From Treponema sp. (GTDB taxonomy: Bacteria; Spirochaetota; Spirochaetia; Treponematales; Treponemataceae), in NCBI RefSeq assembly GCF_024696245.1, contig NZ_JAILGZ010000012.1, positions 1-43,783 on the forward strand: DNA of 43,783 nt, given 5' to 3'. The notes under the pieces are model-generated. The model was not told the DNA's origin, searched no databases, and worked only from the letters and a program-made list of their open reading frames with translations. Positions 1,824 to 11,976 of this stretch are shown piece after piece. Each line of letters begins with the position of its first letter. Positions within the stretch are counted from its first letter, which is position 1. Position numbers and translations under genes: made by a program.

Positions 1824-2867
1824 ATGCTGGGAATTTATCTGAACCTTGTTCTTATAGCTCTGGCAGTCCTCTCTCTTGCTGCAGGAATTTCTTTCTGCAT
1901 TAATGCAAGTTCACCCCGATACATCAGGCATTATACCCTCTTCTTTGGAATAGCTTCTGCCCTTATCTGCGGGGGCTATGCCTTAATGGCCTTTACTCCA
2001 GATACAGATAAAGCCTGGATTCCCCGCTTAGTAGGTTTATACGGAGTGGATGTTTTTCTGCTTATGGAATTTACTTTCCTTATGACAGATATGAAAATTC
2101 CTACGTCAAAAAAATATTTTCCTTCAGGAGCCTTTGGAGTCTATCTTATTCTTGACATGATGATTCACGGGGACAAAAATACGCTGGCCTTTATAAGGGA
2201 TTTTGGTTTTACTTACTATGTCCCGGTTAATTCCTCTTCCCATCTTTTTCACTACTCATACGTAACGGTAATTGGCATTACTCTTTTTGTCTGTGCAATT
2301 TTCTGGTACAGAAAGGCAAGTATCCGCAGGGATAAACTTTTTATCATAAAAATTGTCAGTGCCAACTTTTTAATTCTCTTTAGTGCCATTCCTGATATTA
2401 TGGGCAGCCGCATTGATTCCTGTTACAGAAGCGTTGGTTATTGCACAGCCTTTGCTATTGTATTTTTTATGTGGTGGCAAGCTGTAAGCATTCAATCGGA
2501 ATTTACGCCTACAATTAAAAACATCAGCAAGGATATCTTTAACACTCTTGATATTCCTGTTTTTATTTTTAATCTTGATCAGAGTGTTACAGTCTTTAAT
2601 CTTCAGGCAAAAAAACTTCTTCTGGATTGTGACAGTCAGTCTGTAAATGAATGCAGTCTCAGCGATATTTTTGTAATGACAGATGTAGAAATCATGCATC
2701 TTCTTGCCAGGTCCCGCCGGGGTGAAGACAGTTTTATTACAGTTACTTCCAGACTTACCCAAAAGAAACTCAACCTTAAATGCACTGTAAAACTTGATTT
2801 TACAAATGAACCTTATTGTGTAGTAGGAACGATTTCCCAGCTTAAGGAGGAATATAAAAAAGAATGA
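1824..2867 (+). CDS. 7TM membrane sensor with C-terminal PAS domain, no output domain
   Basis: A 347-residue protein. Roughly residues 1-225 form about seven hydrophobic segments in the arrangement of the '7TM' input region of some histidine kinases. Residues about 228-345 read as a PAS domain (DIPVFIFNLDQSVTVFNLQAK to CVVGTISQL). It stops there: no histidine-kinase, GGDEF or methyl-accepting domain follows. A clear Shine-Dalgarno AAGGAGA lies at 1814-1820. The last four bases overlap the start of the next gene (ATGA), a large HD-GYP sensor, so the two are translationally coupled and probably act together. Likely role: membrane sensing or adaptor subunit for the downstream phosphodiesterase; the ligand is unknown. 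Confidence 0.65.
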   Translation: MLGIYLNLVLIALAVLSLAAGISFCINASSPRYIRHYTLFFGIASALICGGYALMAFTPDTDKAWIPRLVGLYGVDVFLLMEFTFLMTDMKIPTSKKYFPSGAFGVYLILDMMIHGDKNTLAFIRDFGFTYYVPVNSSSHLFHYSYVTVIGITLFVCAIFWYRKASIRRDKLFIIKIVSANFLILFSAIPDIMGSRIDSCYRSVGYCTAFAIVFFMWWQAVSIQSEFTPTIKNISKDIFNTLDIPVFIFNLDQSVTVFNLQAKKLLLDCDSQSVNECSLSDIFVMTDVEIMHLLARSRRGEDSFITVTSRLTQKKLNLKCTVKLDFTNEPYCVVGTISQLKEEYKKE

Positions 2868-5800
2868 ACAGGTATAAAAATTCACAAATTGTTTTTATAA
2901 CGGCCTTCAGTATTCTGGCAAATATTTTTCTTCTAAATATTGCAAGGTATCTGTCACTGCCTTTATGGCTCGACACCCTGGGAACCTTTTTTGCCGCCTA
3001 TGCCCTGGGTCCCTTCTGCGGCGCCTTTATCGGATTTTCTACAAATATCATTCTTTCCTTTTCTATACCCCTTTTAATTCCTTATTCAATGATCGGTATT
3101 ATAGCCGGACTTATAACCGGACACATGGCAAAGCATGGCATGATGAAAAACATGTTCAACACAATGACACTGGCTGTGCTGGTAACAATTATAAGTGTAG
3201 CAATTTCTTCGGTTCTTGCCTTTATTGTCAGAAATGGTTCAACAGGAAACCTCTGGGGAGATGGTATTATTGCCCTTCTTGAATCTATGGGTGTAAATAA
3301 AATTCTTGCTGTTGTTACAGGTTCTTTTTATGTTGAATTTTTAGACAAGATGCTGTCTCTGGTAATTCTTTATGAATTCCTTAAACTCTACAGAAACATA
3401 AAATCTCTTATTCCGGATTTTTTTAAAATTCAAAATAAAATTACTGATGAAGAAAAAACAAAGCATGGTCCCCTTTTAAAAAGCCTTCTGCTTATTTTTA
3501 CGACAGGTCTTACACTTTCTTCCTATAAAGCCAGTGCCCAGAATGTAAATTATAATTCCTATGTAAGGACAATCTATAATAATTACAACGGTCTTCCTGG
3601 TGGAGTTGCAAATGATATTGCAGCAACCAATGACGGTATTCTCTGGATAGGAACTTATGCCGGCCTTTACAGGCACAACGGCAGGGAATTCCGTCTTATG
3701 GATGACTATCCGGAAATTAAATCCGTAAGGTGTCTTTATGTAGATGACGAGGGCCGCCTTTTTACAGGAACAAATGATTCAGGTCTTTCCATTATTATTA
3801 ACGAAAGCGTTACAAACACCCTTCAGGAAAAAGACGGGCTTCCTTCTGATTCTGTCAGATGTATAGTAAGAAGTTCAGACGGCTATTATTACGTTGGAAC
3901 TTCCAGGGAAACAGTTGTTCTGTCTATTTCAGACGGTCTTAAAATAAAAACTATTTTCAGTGATTTATGTGAAGGCAGAAGAATTGCAGCAGATTCTAAA
4001 GACCATGTTGCCCTTGTTACTTCTGACGGCAGGCTTAGTATTTTAAAAAATGCAGAAGTGCTTTATTCATTTAAGGAAGAAGAAGATTTCTTTACGGCTG
4101 TTAATTTTAGTGAAAATGGAATTCTTTACGCAGCAACAGGTTCCGGTATTCTTAAGTCCTATAGTCTTTTAGAAAATGGCCGTCTTAAAAAATTAAATGA
4201 ATTGAACTGTAAGAATCTGCGTCATATTAATTCAATTGATTTTTATGATTCAAACATAATTCTTTGTTCTGATACAGGTGCAGGATACATAAAGGATGAA
4301 ACTTATTTTACAATAGAAACTTCTTCTTTTAACAATTCCATTGAACACATGATAGAAGATTATCAGGGCAATCTCTGGTTCTCTTCTTCCCGTCTTGGTA
4401 TCCTTAAATTGTGCCGATCTTCTTTTACAGAGGTTTATCTTTCTGCAGGATTTGATGAAGCTGTTGTAAATACAATTACAAAATTTAACGGAGATTTATA
4501 TTTTGGAACAGACAAGGGGCTTTCCGTAATTCCTCAATCAGGCAGTCAGACAAATAATCAATCTGGTAAAAATTCCCTTACTGAATATCTTGAAGGAACA
4601 AGGGTCAGATGTCTCTATCCTGATTCAAAGGGAAATCTCTGGATATGTACAAAAGGAAAAGGACTTATTTGTGCTGATAAAAATCTAAAAATAAAAAGCT
4701 ACGAAAGTAATGAGACCATGAGGGTTGTAACTGAACTTTCTGACGGGAGTATTGTTGCCGGCAGCAGCAGGGGAATTATTTTTTTAGAAGACAATAAAAT
4801 TACAGGAAGACTTACTCAGGCGGACGGGCTTGAAAACCCTACTATATTAACTTTAAGTCAGGCAGCAAACGGAACTATTCTTGCAGGAACTGATGGTGGT
4901 GGTCTTGCCATTATTAATGATAAAAAAATTTTCAGAGTAATCAAAAAAAGCAATGGTCTTTCTTCAAATGTAATTCTAAGAACAGTCAATGATGTAAAAA
5001 ACGGCAGGCTGACTGGGGGAACTTTTATTGTTACCAGCAGCGGTCTTTGTTATACAGAGTCCAGCCTTAACTTTAGTGTAAAAAAACTTTCCAACTTTCC
5101 TTACTTTAACAATTACGATCTTGTAATAAATAATGATTCAAATATTTTTGTTTTAGGCAGTGCAGGAATTTTTGTAGTTAACAGGGAAGAACTGCTTTCC
5201 GGACAAAAAGTTGACTACGAACTTCTTGATCTAAAAAAGGGACTCAGAAGTTCCCTTACAGCAAATTCCTGGAACTATATGGATGAAGATAAAAATCTTT
5301 ACCTCTCATGTGACAGTGGTGCCAGCTGTATAAATCTTGATGATTATGATAAACATGACAGGTCTTACCGCATTCAGCTTAAGTCAATTCTTATTGATGG
5401 AAAACGTCATATCGTACAAAAAGATATTCCTTTTGTTATTCCTTCTGATGCAGTCAACCTGGAAATTTTTCCGGAAATAATTAATTATTCCATTAACAAT
5501 CCTTACATAAAGCTTTACCTTGAAGGTGCAGATTCAAAAGCCCTTATTACTTTACAAAGCAGTATGTCAGGCATAAGTTATTCTGATTTAAAGGCAGGTT
5601 CCTATAAATTCCATATCAGCCTTTTAGACAGCAAGGGTAAAAACGTAACGGAAGAAGCTGTTTACGAAATTAAAAAGACCTACAGGATTTACGATAACTG
5701 GTGGTTCCTTCTTTATGCTGGAATTGTACTTATACTTGCAGTAGCCTGGGTATCATGGTTTTTAACCATTACTCTTGTGCACAGGCGAATTCAGATTCAG

Positions 5801-6454
5801 ACCAGGGAACTTGAGGCTGTTAAAAAAGAAGTGCAGATGGGTAACGAAACAATTTTCTCTATTGCAAATGCAGTCGAAGCCAGGGATAAAAGTACAGGAA
5901 GACATTCCTACCGTGTTGCAGAGTATGCCGTAAAAATTTCCCAGGAGCTGGGCTTTACACAAGAAGAACAGGAAGAGCTTCGTAAAACAGGGCTTCTTCA
6001 TGACATCGGTAAAATCGGTGTACCTGATTCAATTTTAAATAAACCTTCTCCCCTTACTGATGAAGAATATAAAATTATGAAAAAGCACGTGGACATTGGT
6101 GGAGAAATCTTAAGGGACTTTACTCTTATTAAAAATGTTTCTTATGGTGCAAAGTATCATCATGAACATTATGACGGTTCCGGTTACAGTGAAGGCTTAA
6201 AGGGAGAAGAGATTCCTCTTAACGCAAGAATTATTGGTATAGCTGATGCCTTTGATGCCATGACTGCAAACCGTGTTTACAGAAAAGCCCTGGATATGGA
6301 AAAGGTAAAGGAAGAGCTTAGAAAAAACAGTGGTACTCAGTTTGATCCTGAACTTACAAAGATTATGCTGGAGCTTATTGAAAATGGAAAAATAAATGTT
6401 CATTCTGTAATAGAAGCCAGTGCAGAACCTCTTAACGATAAAGGAGAACAATAA
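2864..6454 (+). CDS. ECF-S-like membrane domain / two-component-regulator beta-propeller / HD-GYP phosphodiesterase
   Basis: A 1196-residue sensor. Domains in order: residues 1-185, five or six membrane segments resembling the substrate-binding (S) subunit of ECF vitamin transporters (LPLWLDTLGTFFAA, then GPFCGAFIGF); about 204-226, an internal signal-like membrane segment ending AQN; about 230-770, repeated 'I..G.. GL' and 'DG.LW.G' blocks typical of Reg_prop propeller repeats; about 840-930, a Y_Y_Y-like beta domain; 946-971, a membrane segment; then a short coiled coil and an HD-GYP domain from about 1000 to 1180. The HD pair is His1046-Asp1047 (LLHDIGKIG), with further metal-ligand motifs KKHVDIG, HHEHYDGSGY (1099-1108) and ADAFDAM. 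The hallmark proline of GYP is Ser1109. HD-GYP domains hydrolyse c-di-GMP (some c-GAMP). The gene overlaps both neighbours. Confidence 0.85.
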   Translation: MNRYKNSQIVFITAFSILANIFLLNIARYLSLPLWLDTLGTFFAAYALGPFCGAFIGFSTNIILSFSIPLLIPYSMIGIIAGLITGHMAKHGMMKNMFNTMTLAVLVTIISVAISSVLAFIVRNGSTGNLWGDGIIALLESMGVNKILAVVTGSFYVEFLDKMLSLVILYEFLKLYRNIKSLIPDFFKIQNKITDEEKTKHGPLLKSLLLIFTTGLTLSSYKASAQNVNYNSYVRTIYNNYNGLPGGVANDIAATNDGILWIGTYAGLYRHNGREFRLMDDYPEIKSVRCLYVDDEGRLFTGTNDSGLSIIINESVTNTLQEKDGLPSDSVRCIVRSSDGYYYVGTSRETVVLSISDGLKIKTIFSDLCEGRRIAADSKDHVALVTSDGRLSILKNAEVLYSFKEEEDFFTAVNFSENGILYAATGSGILKSYSLLENGRLKKLNELNCKNLRHINSIDFYDSNIILCSDTGAGYIKDETYFTIETSSFNNSIEHMIEDYQGNLWFSSSRLGILKLCRSSFTEVYLSAGFDEAVVNTITKFNGDLYFGTDKGLSVIPQSGSQTNNQSGKNSLTEYLEGTRVRCLYPDSKGNLWICTKGKGLICADKNLKIKSYESNETMRVVTELSDGSIVAGSSRGIIFLEDNKITGRLTQADGLENPTILTLSQAANGTILAGTDGGGLAIINDKKIFRVIKKSNGLSSNVILRTVNDVKNGRLTGGTFIVTSSGLCYTESSLNFSVKKLSNFPYFNNYDLVINNDSNIFVLGSAGIFVVNREELLSGQKVDYELLDLKKGLRSSLTANSWNYMDEDKNLYLSCDSGASCINLDDYDKHDRSYRIQLKSILIDGKRHIVQKDIPFVIPSDAVNLEIFPEIINYSINNPYIKLYLEGADSKALITLQSSMSGISYSDLKAGSYKFHISLLDSKGKNVTEEAVYEIKKTYRIYDNWWFLLYAGIVLILAVAWVSWFLTITLVHRRIQIQTRELEAVKKEVQMGNETIFSIANAVEARDKSTGRHSYRVAEYAVKISQELGFTQEEQEELRKTGLLHDIGKIGVPDSILNKPSPLTDEEYKIMKKHVDIGGEILRDFTLIKNVSYGAKYHHEHYDGSGYSEGLKGEEIPLNARIIGIADAFDAMTANRVYRKALDMEKVKEELRKNSGTQFDPELTKIMLELIENGKINVHSVIEASAEPLNDKGEQ

Positions 6455-7668
6455 TGACTTGTCTTTTAAAAAACAAATATTTTATATGTGCCCTCACCTG
6501 CATGACTTTAATTTTTATTGCCTTTACTGCCAGACAACTTTTTTACACTGATTATTCCAGAAGAACAATTAAAGCAGGTTTTGTTTACATTGGAGATCCG
6601 GGAACTGCCTACACAAATAATTTTTGTCGTGCCCAGCTGGAACTGGAAGAAAAATATGGTGACAGGGTAAAAACTATTGCCAAATATAATATTTCTGAAA
6701 AGTCCTGTGAAGAGGCGATTCTTGATCTTGTAAACGAAGACTGTGATATAATTTTTACCACAAGTTATGGCTACAGTAAAAAAACAAAAGAAATAGCAGC
6801 CAGATATCCCGGCATTCAGTTCTGCCAGGCAACAGGAGACAATGCAAAGGAAGGTCTCTACCTGTCCAACTACCACAACTTTATGGGGCGTATTTACGAA
6901 GGCCGCTATATTGCAGGAATCACTGCAGGGTTAAAAATGCAGGAATTAATTGATCAGGATAAAATTAAAGTAGATCAGGCTATTGCAGGTTATGTTGCAG
7001 CATTTCCTTATTCAGAAGTTATATCCGGTTATACTGCTTTCTTTTTGGGAATAAGGCAGATTGTTCCTCAGGCCAGGATGAAGGTAATGTACACCAACAC
7101 CTGGAGTAATCACAATGCAGAAAAAAAATGCGCTTCTCAATTAATAGATGAAGGCTGTGTAATAATCAGTCAGCATTCAGATACTACAGGAAGTGCCATG
7201 GCCTGCGAAGAAGCTTCTACTAAAAAAGGTAAGACAGTTTATCATGTAGGTTACAATCAGAGTATGACAGACATTGCCCCAACTACATCTTTAATATCCT
7301 GCAGAATTAACTGGGCCCCTTACATTCTTACGGCAGCAGAAGCAGTCCTTACTAATAAAAAAATAGAAAAGTGCATAAAAAGCCCTCTTAGCGGTAATGA
7401 CAGTGCAGCAGGTTTTGACAGGGGCTGGGTAGAAATGATTGGCCTTAACAAACTGATTGCAGCTTATGATACGGAAGATATAATTGAGCAATACATTTCT
7501 GATTTTAAGGAAGACAAAATAGAAGTTTTTAAAGGCAACTATATTGGTATCAATCCCTTTGACCACAGTGATACTTACAATCTTCGAACTCCTTATAAAG
7601 AAAACTCCAGAAAATCATCTCCAACTTTTTCTTACGTACTAAAAGATGTAATAGAAATCTGTAACTAA
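6454..7668 (+). CDS. BMP/PnrA-family periplasmic binding protein with N-terminal membrane anchor
   Basis: A 404-residue protein. Residues about 8-28 are one hydrophobic segment without a convincing lipobox cysteine, so it is more likely membrane-anchored than a lipoprotein. The rest has the pattern of the BMP family (Med/TmpC/PnrA): IKAGFVYIGDPGTAYTNNF near residue 40, DIIFTTSYGY, NYHNFMGRIYEGRYIAGI, and the C-terminal NPFD. Characterised relatives bind purine nucleosides. The start overlaps the stop of the HD-GYP gene (TAATG), and no ABC permease or ATPase follows. I infer that it presents a ligand to the two preceding sensors rather than feeding a transporter. The N-terminal anchor fits that view; the nucleoside ligand is a family-based guess. 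Confidence 0.8.
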   Translation: MTCLLKNKYFICALTCMTLIFIAFTARQLFYTDYSRRTIKAGFVYIGDPGTAYTNNFCRAQLELEEKYGDRVKTIAKYNISEKSCEEAILDLVNEDCDIIFTTSYGYSKKTKEIAARYPGIQFCQATGDNAKEGLYLSNYHNFMGRIYEGRYIAGITAGLKMQELIDQDKIKVDQAIAGYVAAFPYSEVISGYTAFFLGIRQIVPQARMKVMYTNTWSNHNAEKKCASQLIDEGCVIISQHSDTTGSAMACEEASTKKGKTVYHVGYNQSMTDIAPTTSLISCRINWAPYILTAAEAVLTNKKIEKCIKSPLSGNDSAAGFDRGWVEMIGLNKLIAAYDTEDIIEQYISDFKEDKIEVFKGNYIGINPFDHSDTYNLRTPYKENSRKSSPTFSYVLKDVIEICN

Positions 7669-7770: not shown

Positions 7771-10700
7771 ATGAAAAAAGTTAAAGTACTTGCTGCAAGT
7801 CTTGCCTTAAGTCTTGCAGCTCTGTTCACTTCCTGTAACAGTGAAATATCTGTTTCAGAAAGTTCCATTGGTTCTGTTACCGCAAATAATGCAGTTAGCA
7901 GAAGCAGCAATTCCAGTAGTCCCGACAAAAGAGTAACAGGTTACTTTTGTGAATGGGGAATCTATGCAGGACACGGAAACTATTTTCCCCAGTATATTCC
8001 TTATGACAAACTGACTCATATTAATTATGCTTTTGTGGGACTTAATCCAGAAACCCAGGCTGTTGAAATTTATGATTCATGGGCAACTAATGAAATCGTA
8101 AGCGATGGAGAAAAATGGGATTCTCAGTACAAAGGTTGTCTTGGTCTTTTAAAAAAGTACAAGGCAAAGTATCCTCATGTTAAAGTTCTTATTTCTGTTG
8201 GAGGATGGACTAAATCTCACGGTTTCCATAATGCCGCAGCAAATGAAGAAAGCCGTAAAAGGGCTGCAGAAAACCTCCTTGACTTTGTAAGGAATAATGA
8301 TCTTGATGGTATCGACATTGACTGGGAATATCCTGGTGTAGATCGTGCAGCAGATCAGAATGACCAGTATGATAAAGGAGCACCAGGAGGAATTGAAGAC
8401 AAAGAAAACTTTACACTCTTCCTTAAAGAACTCCGAAATGCTCTTGACCAGCAGGGAGCAAAAGATGGTAAGCACTATGAACTTACAGCTGCAATTGGTG
8501 TAGGTTACGATAAAATTGCAGTAACTAATCCAGGTGAATACAGTAAGTATCTTGATGCCCTTAACCTTATGAGTTATGACATGCATGGAGCTTTTGAAGC
8601 TACAACAGGTCACCAGGCACCTCTTTATCCAAGTCCTTACGATAACCATGCAAATCCAGAAATAAGGGAAAAATATAACATCGACTGGGCTGTAAAAGAA
8701 TTTATAAGACAGGGTGTACCTTCAAATAAAATTGTTATTGGAGTTCCTTTCTATAGTCGCGGCTGGGACAATGTAAACGGTGGCTGGGACTTTGATGGCA
8801 ACGGAAGTCCTGACGGTATGTTTGGAACAGGCGGTTCTACTCTTCCTGGTTCCTGGGGTCCTGGAGGACAGAGTCCTTACTATGAAATCAAGAAACTAGA
8901 AAATACCCAGGGTTGGGATAAGTACAGGGATCCTTATTCAAAGTCCTGCTGGCTTTACAACCCTTCTTTAAAACAGCTTTACACATACGATGACGCAGAA
9001 AGCATTCGTGTTAAAATGAACTACATCAAGGATAACAATCTTGGTGGAGCAATGTACTGGGAACTTGACGGTGACGACTGGCAGAATGGTTATGATCTTG
9101 TAAACATAATATCAGATTCAATTCTTGAAGGAGTTGTATTTGATGACGATCCAAATCCTGTAGAAAGTCCTGATCTTCCACCTTCAGGTGACAATCCTTC
9201 TACAGAAAAGCCTTCAACTGAAACACCTGCAACAGACACACCTTCTACAGAGATTCCTGACAGCAGTAAAGCTACAGGACTTCCTTCAGTTCCTTCAATT
9301 GAACAGACAAGCTGGAACGGTGAATCTGATTTTTCTATCCGCATGAATATGTGGTGGGGTCAGAATGGTACTCTTGCTGAACTTCTTGAAAACGGCAAAA
9401 GCATTCAGTCTTTAAAACTTACAGATAATTCACCATCTGCTCAGAGCTGTACATTTACTGTAAAGGGAAAGGCAAATGGAACTTATGAATATCAGGTAAG
9501 ATTATCAAATAAGTTTGGTTCGAGTCTTTCTAACAAAGTTAAATATACTGTAACTAAAGCAGGCTCTTCACTTCCGTCTGAAAATAATGATTCAAATAAT
9601 GATTCAAATAACGATCAGCCTGACACTAACCCATCAGAGGATACTCCAGTAATTATTCCTCCAGTTTCAGGGGGTGCCATTGAAGTAGAAGGTCTTCCTA
9701 CTTATGTTCTTACAGGTTACTGGCAGAATTTTAATAACGGTGCAAAAGTTCTCCGCATTCGTGATGTTCCTGAAGCTTACAATATTATTTGTGTAGCTTT
9801 CGGTGAATCTACATCCCTTCCTGGACAGGTTGTATTTAATCTTGACAGCTCACTTGGTTTTTCAAAAGCAGACTTTATTGCAGACATAGCTTCAGTTAAA
9901 GAACGTGGTCAGCATGTAATTCTTTCTGTTGGTGGAGAAACGGGTAATGTTCTCATTAACAGTGATGCAGCTGCTTCTAACTTTGCTTCAAGCATTACAG
10001 CCCTTATGAATGAATATGGATTTGAAGGTGTAGATATTGACCTTGAACATGGAATCAACGCAACTTATATTTCAAAAGCCCTCCGCGCAATTCCAAAAGG
10101 TTCAATCATCACTATGGCACCACAGACCATAGACATGCAGTCAACAGGAACGGAATACTTTAAGCTTGCCCTTGCAATTTCTGACATTCTTACAATCAAC
10201 AACATGCAGTACTACAATTCAGGATCTATGCTTGGAGAAGACGGAAAAGTTTATTCCCAGGGAAATGAAAACTTCCTTACAGGTCTTGCAGCAATTCAGC
10301 TTGAACATGGTCTCAGACCAGATCAGGTAGGTCTTGGACTTCCTGCTTCAACTCGTGGTGCCGGTTCCGGATACGTAGATCCACAGATTATCATTAACGC
10401 CCTTGATACTCTTATTCACGGAAGAAGACACGGCTCATACATGCCTCCACACACATACCCTGGACTCAGGGGTGTAATGACATGGTCAATCAACTGGGAT
10501 GCTTCAAACAACTGGAACTTTGCAAGAAAAATAGGAAACTATCTTGCAGAACTTAACAACACTGATCCTGTTGAACCTTCAGATCCTGTAATTCCTTCAG
10601 AACCTGATACTCCTGATACACCTGATACTCCTTCAGAGCCTGATACTCCGGATCTTCCTGAAACACCTGAAACACCTGAAACACCTGAAACACCAGACAC

Positions 10701-11976
10701 TTCTGCATCATATCCTGCCTGGTCTGACAATAGTGTTTCCTATGCAAAAGGTGATCTTGTAATTTACAATGGTGCTGTTTATGAATGTGATTATGCCCAT
10801 ACATCAAATTCAGCATGGATTCCTGGAACAGCAGGACTCTGGTTCTGGAAGCTTAGAACAGACCTTGATGGTTCAAAAAGCCCTGTTACAGTAACTCCTT
10901 CACAGCCTGATACTCCTGATATACCAGATACTCCGGATCTTCCTGAAACTCCGGATACACCAGATACTCCTGAAGGTCCTGTAAACACAGAACTTCCTGC
11001 AAGAATTATGAGTGGTTACTGGCATACATGGGACGGCAACAATCCTTTTATTAAACTCAGAAACGTTGATGAAAACTGGGATGTAATAAATGTTTCTTTT
11101 GCTGAACCTGTTACTCCAGGAAGTGGTAACGGTAACATGAAGTTTTCAGTTGCAACAAAAGACGGATACAGCCTTAGTGAATTTAAAAGCGATATAAAGA
11201 AACTTCATGCAAAAGGTAAGAAAATAGTTCTTTCTATCGGAGGTTATGAAGGTTATTTCTATCTTGAAAATCAGGCTGCAGTTTCTAATTTTGTTTCACA
11301 GATTAATGCACTTGTAGACGAATACAACTTTGACGGAATTGACATTGATCTGGAACAGTCATCTGTTCAACTTAACAGTGGCGCTGACCCGGATTTTAAA
11401 AATGTTAAAACACCAAGAATTGTAAACATGATTTCTGCAATAAGACAGATTTGTGATGCTCACGGAGATAACTTTATTCTTTCCTGGGCTCCGGAAACAT
11501 TTTACATGCAGCTTGGACACCAGTTTTACGGTGGAGCAAATTCTTATGTAGATAGTCGTGCAGGAGCTTATCTTGGAATGGTATATGCCCTCAGGGATAA
11601 GACAACTTATGTACAGACTCAGCTTTACAATTCTTCACCAATTACCGGTCGTGACGGCAACTCTTATAACATGGGAACAGTAGAAGGTATTGTAGAAATG
11701 TGTAACATGCTTCTTGAAGGATTTACTGTAAACAATAACAGCCACTATTTCTTCCCTGCTCTCCGTCCGGATCAGGTAGTAATTGCTGTTCCATGTTCTT
11801 CTGGTGCTGCAGGTTCAGGACAGATTTCCAATGCAGGACTCCAGGAAGCATTCAAAAAAATTAATGCTAAGCATCCTGGTCTCAGGGGAATTATGACCTG
11901 GTCAATTAACTGGGACAGTCTGCAGAACGGAAACTCCTTTGTAAAAGAAAACAAAAGGTTTCTTAATTCACTGTAA
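7771..11976 (+). CDS. Secreted lipoprotein chitinase with three GH18 domains and a chitin-binding module
   Basis: A 1401-residue exported protein. The signal peptide ends LAALFTSC, so Cys22 is a plausible lipidation site. GH18-1 (about 52-450) carries DGIDIDWE with catalytic Glu186. An Ig/FnIII-like module (about 500-595, with MWWGQNG) follows a Thr/Pro/Glu linker. GH18-2 (about 643-925) has EGVDIDLE (752-759), so the first Asp of DxxDxDxE is Glu752 while Glu759 is kept. A Pro-Glu/Asp-Thr linker precedes a CBM5/12-like module (about 981-1028, rich in Trp and Tyr), then a second such linker. GH18-3 (about 1075-1400) has canonical DGIDIDLE with Glu1195. GH18-2 and -3 resemble each other (GYW start, TWSINWD end) and differ from GH18-1, suggesting complementary specificities. 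It probably hydrolyses chitin or chito-oligosaccharides at the cell surface. Confidence 0.93.
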   Translation: MKKVKVLAASLALSLAALFTSCNSEISVSESSIGSVTANNAVSRSSNSSSPDKRVTGYFCEWGIYAGHGNYFPQYIPYDKLTHINYAFVGLNPETQAVEIYDSWATNEIVSDGEKWDSQYKGCLGLLKKYKAKYPHVKVLISVGGWTKSHGFHNAAANEESRKRAAENLLDFVRNNDLDGIDIDWEYPGVDRAADQNDQYDKGAPGGIEDKENFTLFLKELRNALDQQGAKDGKHYELTAAIGVGYDKIAVTNPGEYSKYLDALNLMSYDMHGAFEATTGHQAPLYPSPYDNHANPEIREKYNIDWAVKEFIRQGVPSNKIVIGVPFYSRGWDNVNGGWDFDGNGSPDGMFGTGGSTLPGSWGPGGQSPYYEIKKLENTQGWDKYRDPYSKSCWLYNPSLKQLYTYDDAESIRVKMNYIKDNNLGGAMYWELDGDDWQNGYDLVNIISDSILEGVVFDDDPNPVESPDLPPSGDNPSTEKPSTETPATDTPSTEIPDSSKATGLPSVPSIEQTSWNGESDFSIRMNMWWGQNGTLAELLENGKSIQSLKLTDNSPSAQSCTFTVKGKANGTYEYQVRLSNKFGSSLSNKVKYTVTKAGSSLPSENNDSNNDSNNDQPDTNPSEDTPVIIPPVSGGAIEVEGLPTYVLTGYWQNFNNGAKVLRIRDVPEAYNIICVAFGESTSLPGQVVFNLDSSLGFSKADFIADIASVKERGQHVILSVGGETGNVLINSDAAASNFASSITALMNEYGFEGVDIDLEHGINATYISKALRAIPKGSIITMAPQTIDMQSTGTEYFKLALAISDILTINNMQYYNSGSMLGEDGKVYSQGNENFLTGLAAIQLEHGLRPDQVGLGLPASTRGAGSGYVDPQIIINALDTLIHGRRHGSYMPPHTYPGLRGVMTWSINWDASNNWNFARKIGNYLAELNNTDPVEPSDPVIPSEPDTPDTPDTPSEPDTPDLPETPETPETPETPDTSASYPAWSDNSVSYAKGDLVIYNGAVYECDYAHTSNSAWIPGTAGLWFWKLRTDLDGSKSPVTVTPSQPDTPDIPDTPDLPETPDTPDTPEGPVNTELPARIMSGYWHTWDGNNPFIKLRNVDENWDVINVSFAEPVTPGSGNGNMKFSVATKDGYSLSEFKSDIKKLHAKGKKIVLSIGGYEGYFYLENQAAVSNFVSQINALVDEYNFDGIDIDLEQSSVQLNSGADPDFKNVKTPRIVNMISAIRQICDAHGDNFILSWAPETFYMQLGHQFYGGANSYVDSRAGAYLGMVYALRDKTTYVQTQLYNSSPITGRDGNSYNMGTVEGIVEMCNMLLEGFTVNNNSHYFFPALRPDQVVIAVPCSSGAAGSGQISNAGLQEAFKKINAKHPGLRGIMTWSINWDSLQNGNSFVKENKRFLNSL
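10568..10986 (+). repeat. Two tandem Pro-Asp/Glu-Thr linker repeats flanking the chitin-binding module
   Basis: Within the chitinase gene, 10568-10704 and 10894-10986 consist of degenerate 9-base units encoding PDT or PET (for example GATACTCCT and GAAACACCT). They flank the CBM5/12-like module at 10711-10854. Such linkers are flexible and prone to copy-number change. The units within one block are more alike than the two blocks are to each other. Confidence 0.75.

Follow-up and report, generated by a model that had tools for sequence, protein, structure and literature searches.

The window, that is, the whole 43,783-nucleotide stretch of Treponema DNA analysed here, contains a unit of three intact open reading frames on the forward strand. 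The first gene (1824..2867) encodes a 347-residue accessory membrane protein that, in its AlphaFold2 model, combines seven transmembrane helices with a PAS-like domain (7TM-PAS). The second (2864..6454) encodes a 1196-residue receptor in which Pfam, NCBIfam and PDB sequence matches, together with conservation in the family, delineate an ECF-S domain, a Reg_prop propeller, a Y_Y_Y domain and an HD-GYP domain, and the third (6454..7668) encodes a 404-residue membrane-anchored binding protein of the BMP/PnrA-like type (PF02608, E = 6.5e-28). Genes 1 and 2 overlap by four bases (ATGA) and genes 2 and 3 by one base (TAATG), as in the original prediction, which also held that the unit has no transporter or kinase partner; no ABC or kinase gene was seen inside it. 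Rfam searches of the window and of six related loci matched nothing but tRNA, so neither a purine nor a c-di-GMP riboswitch was detected upstream. A larger conserved operon was considered and rejected, given that the racemase, nucleotidyltransferase and chitinase genes flanking the unit in the window are not conserved. Immediately downstream of the unit (7771-11976) lies a gene for a large chitinase-like protein of several domains, GH18 and CBM_5_12 among them. The host genome encodes 14 GGDEF domains and can therefore make c-di-GMP.

Domain organization of the receptor

The receptor begins with a membrane domain (aa 1-190, 2864..3433) that matches the NCBIfam family ECF_S_CD3073 with E = 8.8e-18 and 69 bits, below the equivalog cut-off of 180, and this profile matches all 67 aligned receptor members. 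The AlphaFold2 model of the domain (67 sequences, pLDDT 89) has the six-helix ECF-S fold, and its best matches are all ECF-S structures, with Z scores from 14.8 (TmRibU), 14.4 (ThiT) and 13.7 (FolT complex) down to 9.2, unrelated entries scoring 8.5 or less. A hydrophobic helix (aa 204-222, 3473..3529), read from the sequence and modelled with low confidence at residues 204-217, appears to lead out to an extracytoplasmic propeller of the two-component-regulator type (aa 225-870, 3536..5473; PF07494 Reg_prop, E = 1.3e-24; matches to 3v9f, 3ott and 3va6), which is followed by a weakly matching Y_Y_Y domain (aa 885-937, 5516..5674; PF07495, E = 0.0044). The putative last transmembrane helix (aa 948-970, 5705..5773) and a possible coiled-coil linker then precede the HD-GYP phosphodiesterase domain (aa 1001-1164, 5864..6355; PF13487, HD_5, E = 2e-40). 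The ECF-S-like membrane domain, the propeller and the HD-GYP output had all been proposed in the original prediction and are borne out by these matches. The HD, HHE, DGxGY and related catalytic residues are each kept in 76-78 of about 78 relatives, so that the catalytic residues of the BMP-linked receptors are essentially invariant and c-di-GMP breakdown is predicted. The same genome encodes a second propeller/HD-GYP protein (G000:C43:22416-25292; L110 6351-9317), with neither an ECF-S domain nor a BMP.

The BMP protein, its anchor and its predicted ligand

Gene 3 matches the Bmp domain (PF02608) with 98 bits against a cut-off of 24.1. Its N-terminus reads as a signal anchor (aa 9-30, 6478..6543) with no lipobox, ahead of an ectodomain at aa 36-404, and all 74 signalling BMPs share this design, a short basic segment followed by a hydrophobic helix, often with a Thr-x-x-Thr/Ser pattern inside it; none of the 74 has a lipobox, consistent with the previous suggestion that a membrane anchor takes the place of a lipid anchor. 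Because the matches of a crude AxA scan, present in 22 of these 74 proteins, sit within the hydrophobic core, cleavage of the anchor looks unlikely, yet possible; by the same crude rule, eight of ten comparison BMPs have a lipobox or an AxA site.

The view that the BMP stands outside any transporter also held when the neighbourhoods of the best 80 of 447 relatives were inspected, as an ABC permease was absent from 79 of these 80 loci and the single one found is part of another operon, which encodes a binding protein for itself. Within the interpretation developed below, the signalling BMPs are thus probably not transport components. The host genome encodes a second BMP next to an arginyl-tRNA synthetase gene (G000:C44:6049-6858; L109 6004-7107); its pocket residues are altered (F, R, N), and no ABC genes were recognised adjoining it. 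In other genera of the order there are proteins of 1147 and 1383 residues ending in a Bmp domain (L111 1065-4508 and L112 2494-6645), with no other Pfam match ahead of it.

In PDB sequence comparisons the closest solved relatives of the window BMP are 3s99 (E = 1.4e-38), in which adenine is modelled, and AtzT (6pi5, E = 1.2e-27); the nucleoside binder TmpC/PnrA aligns weakly. AtzT binds guanine with an affinity of 110 nM and adenine with 2.5 uM, and contacts the purine through Tyr45, Ser97, the backbone of Phe98, Glu165, Trp194, Asn218 and Asn220 (PMC6834077). The corresponding residues of the window BMP are Tyr, Ser, Tyr, Glu, Trp, His and Asp, the last two being common to 3s99. Since the AtzT/3s99 pocket (AtzT positions 45, 97, 165, 194, 218 and 220) is kept in 66-72 of the 74 signalling BMPs, a purine base (adenine, guanine or similar) is the likely ligand, as judged from sequence; the pocket is damaged in a few proteins (L171, L184 and part of a clade with SBP_bac_3 genes, described below). 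The earlier proposal of a purine nucleoside is therefore retained as to the purine-type pocket, but the residues match those of the purine-base binders rather than a nucleoside binder.

Conservation and gene histories of the receptor and BMP genes

Among 98 related genomes, surveyed by genome searches and local gene calling, the BMP gene adjoins the receptor gene in 21 of the 24 loci of the genus; of the remaining three, L021 ends at a contig edge, L090 lies at a contig start, and at L082 the BMP is absent from a nearly complete genome. A wider scan with the ECF-S domain, limited to one genome per species, gave 447 relatives, the best 80 of which were analysed. This set includes many metagenome assemblies, partly overlaps the genus set and may carry wrong taxon labels; it comprises Treponema, Lachnospiraceae and further Clostridia, plus one record each under Selenomonadaceae and Chloroflexi. 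Receptor and BMP genes were adjacent in 73 of the 76 assessable loci from rumen and gut Treponema and Bacillota, the BMP gene lying downstream in 68 and upstream in five. With starts assigned by rule, the two genes overlap in 50 of those 68 downstream cases, usually by 4 or 11 bases. No other conserved neighbour was found at the best 80 loci. The persistence of this pairing in two phyla places the arrangement beyond chance. Separation of the genes in relatives would have spoken against the coupled sensory unit proposed originally; the adjacency and the overlaps support it. The three exceptions (L117, L121 and L128) form a Treponema group, two of them labelled Treponema bryantii, that retains the receptor with no BMP, so the BMP is not strictly needed. 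The cultured relative T. bryantii B25 carries the pair, and strain XBD1002 lacks the BMP. MalT-like TPR/LuxR transcription regulators are encoded next to the unit at ten loci, which come from both phyla (L127, L140, L152, L153, L166, L167, L170, L171, L175 and L196; recognised by Pfam for four and by clustering for the rest).

The histories of the two genes agree. Tree distances of receptor and BMP are correlated (Mantel r = 0.84; the best of 500 permutations reached 0.08), and 34 of 69 splits are common to both trees. In both trees a second Treponema group falls with the Clostridial locus L158 (support 0.94 and 0.50), so the pair seems to move together, which suggests joint transfer of receptor and BMP. 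Moreover, the signalling BMPs group with one another to the exclusion of ten further BMPs from the genus (SH-aLRT 97).

The 7TM-PAS gene

In the AlphaFold2 model of the gene 1 product (20 sequences, pLDDT 83), seven transmembrane helices (about aa 2-225, 1827-2498), with a beta hairpin between TM4 and TM5, are followed by a PAS-like C-terminus (about aa 236-339, 2529-2840). The window copy has no Pfam match, several family members have weak PAS matches, and loop charges indicate an external N-terminus and an internal PAS domain. No output domain was found in this protein, in line with its earlier description as a membrane sensor lacking output.

The gene occurs at 12 loci in the 98 related genomes, always adjoining the HD-GYP gene, and two of these loci have the order BMP, 7TM, HD-GYP. 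By profile search no copies were found elsewhere in these genomes, bar one marginal partial match. The 7TM-PAS protein is an optional, putative third subunit in one Treponema clade, and the conserved core therefore consists of two genes; of the three-gene unit originally put forward, the receptor/BMP order was kept in relatives and the 7TM gene in that one clade. At L132 a separate ABC operon (ABC_sub_bind, permease and ATPase; 3264-6876) is located directly upstream of the 7TM gene.

A Foldseek search with the model listed mostly chains of GPCRs and PAS domains. The top match in VIA was mGlu2 (Z 17.7, 3.3 A over 219 residues), a score to be read knowing that helical bundles can score high even with no kinship. 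For this reason we treat the GPCR likeness as an observation and not as homology. No credible PDB sequence relatives of the protein were obtained, and we found no direct literature report of a GPCR-like 7TM in bacterial kinases. The likeness to class C GPCRs extends to a two-lobed binding protein encoded beside the 7TM gene, but here there is no sequence match, the binding protein is a separate chain, the C-terminal domain is PAS-like and the 7TM protein is optional; the resemblance to mGlu2 may reflect convergence of helical bundles. A bolder and improbable idea is that, in the Treponema clade of the window, the anchored BMP and the 7TM-PAS protein constitute a split class C GPCR-like receptor with a c-di-GMP phosphodiesterase output replacing the G protein; equally conjectural is its corollary that the BMP, as a two-lobed ligand trap, would act on the seven-helix bundle.

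Outputs and partners in the wider receptor family

Receptor relatives with other outputs were also identified, namely GGDEF (L219 and L220) and hybrid histidine kinase (L213, L214 and L217), mostly with no adjoining binding protein, although an SBP_bac_1 protein with a lipobox-like N-terminus is encoded directly upstream of two kinase-type relatives. At eight Clostridial loci an SBP_bac_3 gene (detected by Pfam for one and by profile for all) lies upstream; since all eight form one clade, this is a single evolutionary episode. The BMPs of this clade share a deletion beside Ser97 and several have lost the sandwich or polar residues, which fits the replacement of one input by another. Of 200 genomes sampled from the family to which one Lachnospiraceae locus belongs, 68 had an ECF-S match; judged by reading-frame length, the matching proteins are partly ECF-S proteins on their own and partly receptors of several types. 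At L205 (2001-4160), L206 and L207 we saw a shorter ECF-S protein, about 719 residues long, that ends in HD-GYP and has no propeller, and a propeller-less protein of this kind is present in T. bryantii XBD1002. The original prediction knew of no described system with such a composition; instead of a peculiarity of one genome, the unit now appears as part of a large family whose outputs differ. Our literature search found nothing on a BMP/HD-GYP or ECF-S/HD-GYP pair.

A binding-protein-coupled receptor as the proposed mechanism

We propose, with a probability of about 0.6, that the pair is a binding-protein-coupled c-di-GMP phosphodiesterase that senses a purine base. An uncleaved N-terminal helix would keep the BMP on the outer side of the cytoplasmic membrane, where the BMP would bind the purine between its two lobes, in the pocket indicated by conservation; the closed BMP would then dock on the propeller and/or the ECF-S domain of the receptor, as the gene pairing and matching gene histories suggest, and the change would be relayed via the last transmembrane helix to the HD-GYP domain, altering c-di-GMP hydrolysis. 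As to direction, we favour, at slightly better than even odds, that purine raises hydrolysis. In one Treponema clade the 7TM-PAS protein may add a second input as a third subunit. There is precedent for c-di-GMP receptors driven by binding proteins (PMC8967002, PMC9602780).

The purine pocket, conserved across two phyla, speaks against placing the real sensor in the propeller or ECF-S domain, with a polysaccharide fragment or vitamin as ligand and the BMP only modulating or stabilising the receptor. This alternative draws on the fact that related Reg_prop proteins are carbohydrate sensors, on the persistence of BMP-less receptors in three loci, on pocket erosion in some BMPs and on glycosidases beside a few loci (the chitinase in the window and a GH16 in L229), but such flanking glycosidases are not conserved, and we consider it unlikely. 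BMP proteins are usually transporter components, the same genus has ABC operons with BMPs and EcfT genes are found elsewhere in the host genome, so the BMP might instead capture ligand for an unlinked ABC transporter, or hand it to an ECF-S importer formed by the receptor domain of modelled ECF-S fold with the ECF module of the genome, the HD-GYP domain monitoring transport. The near absence of permeases from these loci, an anchor differing from that of transporter BMPs and the fusion of the ECF-S domain to about 1000 additional residues of receptor make this quite unlikely. Finally, operon neighbours can be functionally unrelated, but a pairing inherited with no functional interaction is very improbable for two genes that are kept together in both phyla, even where their order has changed (the BMP gene comes first in five loci), and that have no further neighbour in common between loci.

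Comparison with known systems and significance

The binding-protein-coupled receptor proposed here is best read, by analogy, as working in outline like NspS-MbaA, the polyamine/c-di-GMP system of Vibrio cholerae, with parts from other families. There too the binding protein is encoded with, and overlaps, a membrane receptor and serves c-di-GMP control rather than transport (PMC8967002), and the present pair likewise has no transporter; however, the ligands of NspS are polyamines and MbaA belongs to the GGDEF-EAL enzymes, whereas here an anchored BMP would serve an ECF-S and propeller input with an HD-GYP output. AtzT and 3s99, which share the pocket positions, are thought to serve uptake, in contrast to the present BMPs with their N-terminal anchor and receptor partner. 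Bacteroides-type hybrid kinases and one-component propeller receptors also carry a propeller and Y_Y_Y outside and a signalling domain inside, but here HD-GYP replaces the kinase, an ECF-S domain stands in front and a binding protein is paired. Similarly, the ECF S components (RibU, ThiT, FolT and the CD3073 family) resemble the membrane domain in fold (Z 9-15) and profile matches, but in this case the domain is fused into a receptor. The membrane sensor domain 5TM-5TMR_LYT of LytS and BtsS, the latter of which binds pyruvate inside its helices (PMC10653868), weakly matches 34 of the 67 ECF-S members (best E = 2.4e-6), and has a kinase output instead of HD-GYP.

Because an apparently anchored purine-binding protein adjoins a predicted c-di-GMP-degrading receptor, gut Treponema and Clostridia probably sense external purines to switch lifestyle. 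We found no description in the literature searched of a c-di-GMP input of the purine-base kind in rumen or gut Treponema or Clostridia and, if the proposal is true, extracellular purine bases would have a direct line to c-di-GMP in these bacteria. More broadly, the ECF-S domain and propeller would constitute a receptor chassis that takes HD-GYP, GGDEF or kinase outputs, and the different binding proteins that adjoin this chassis in several lineages predict ligands and partners open to individual testing.
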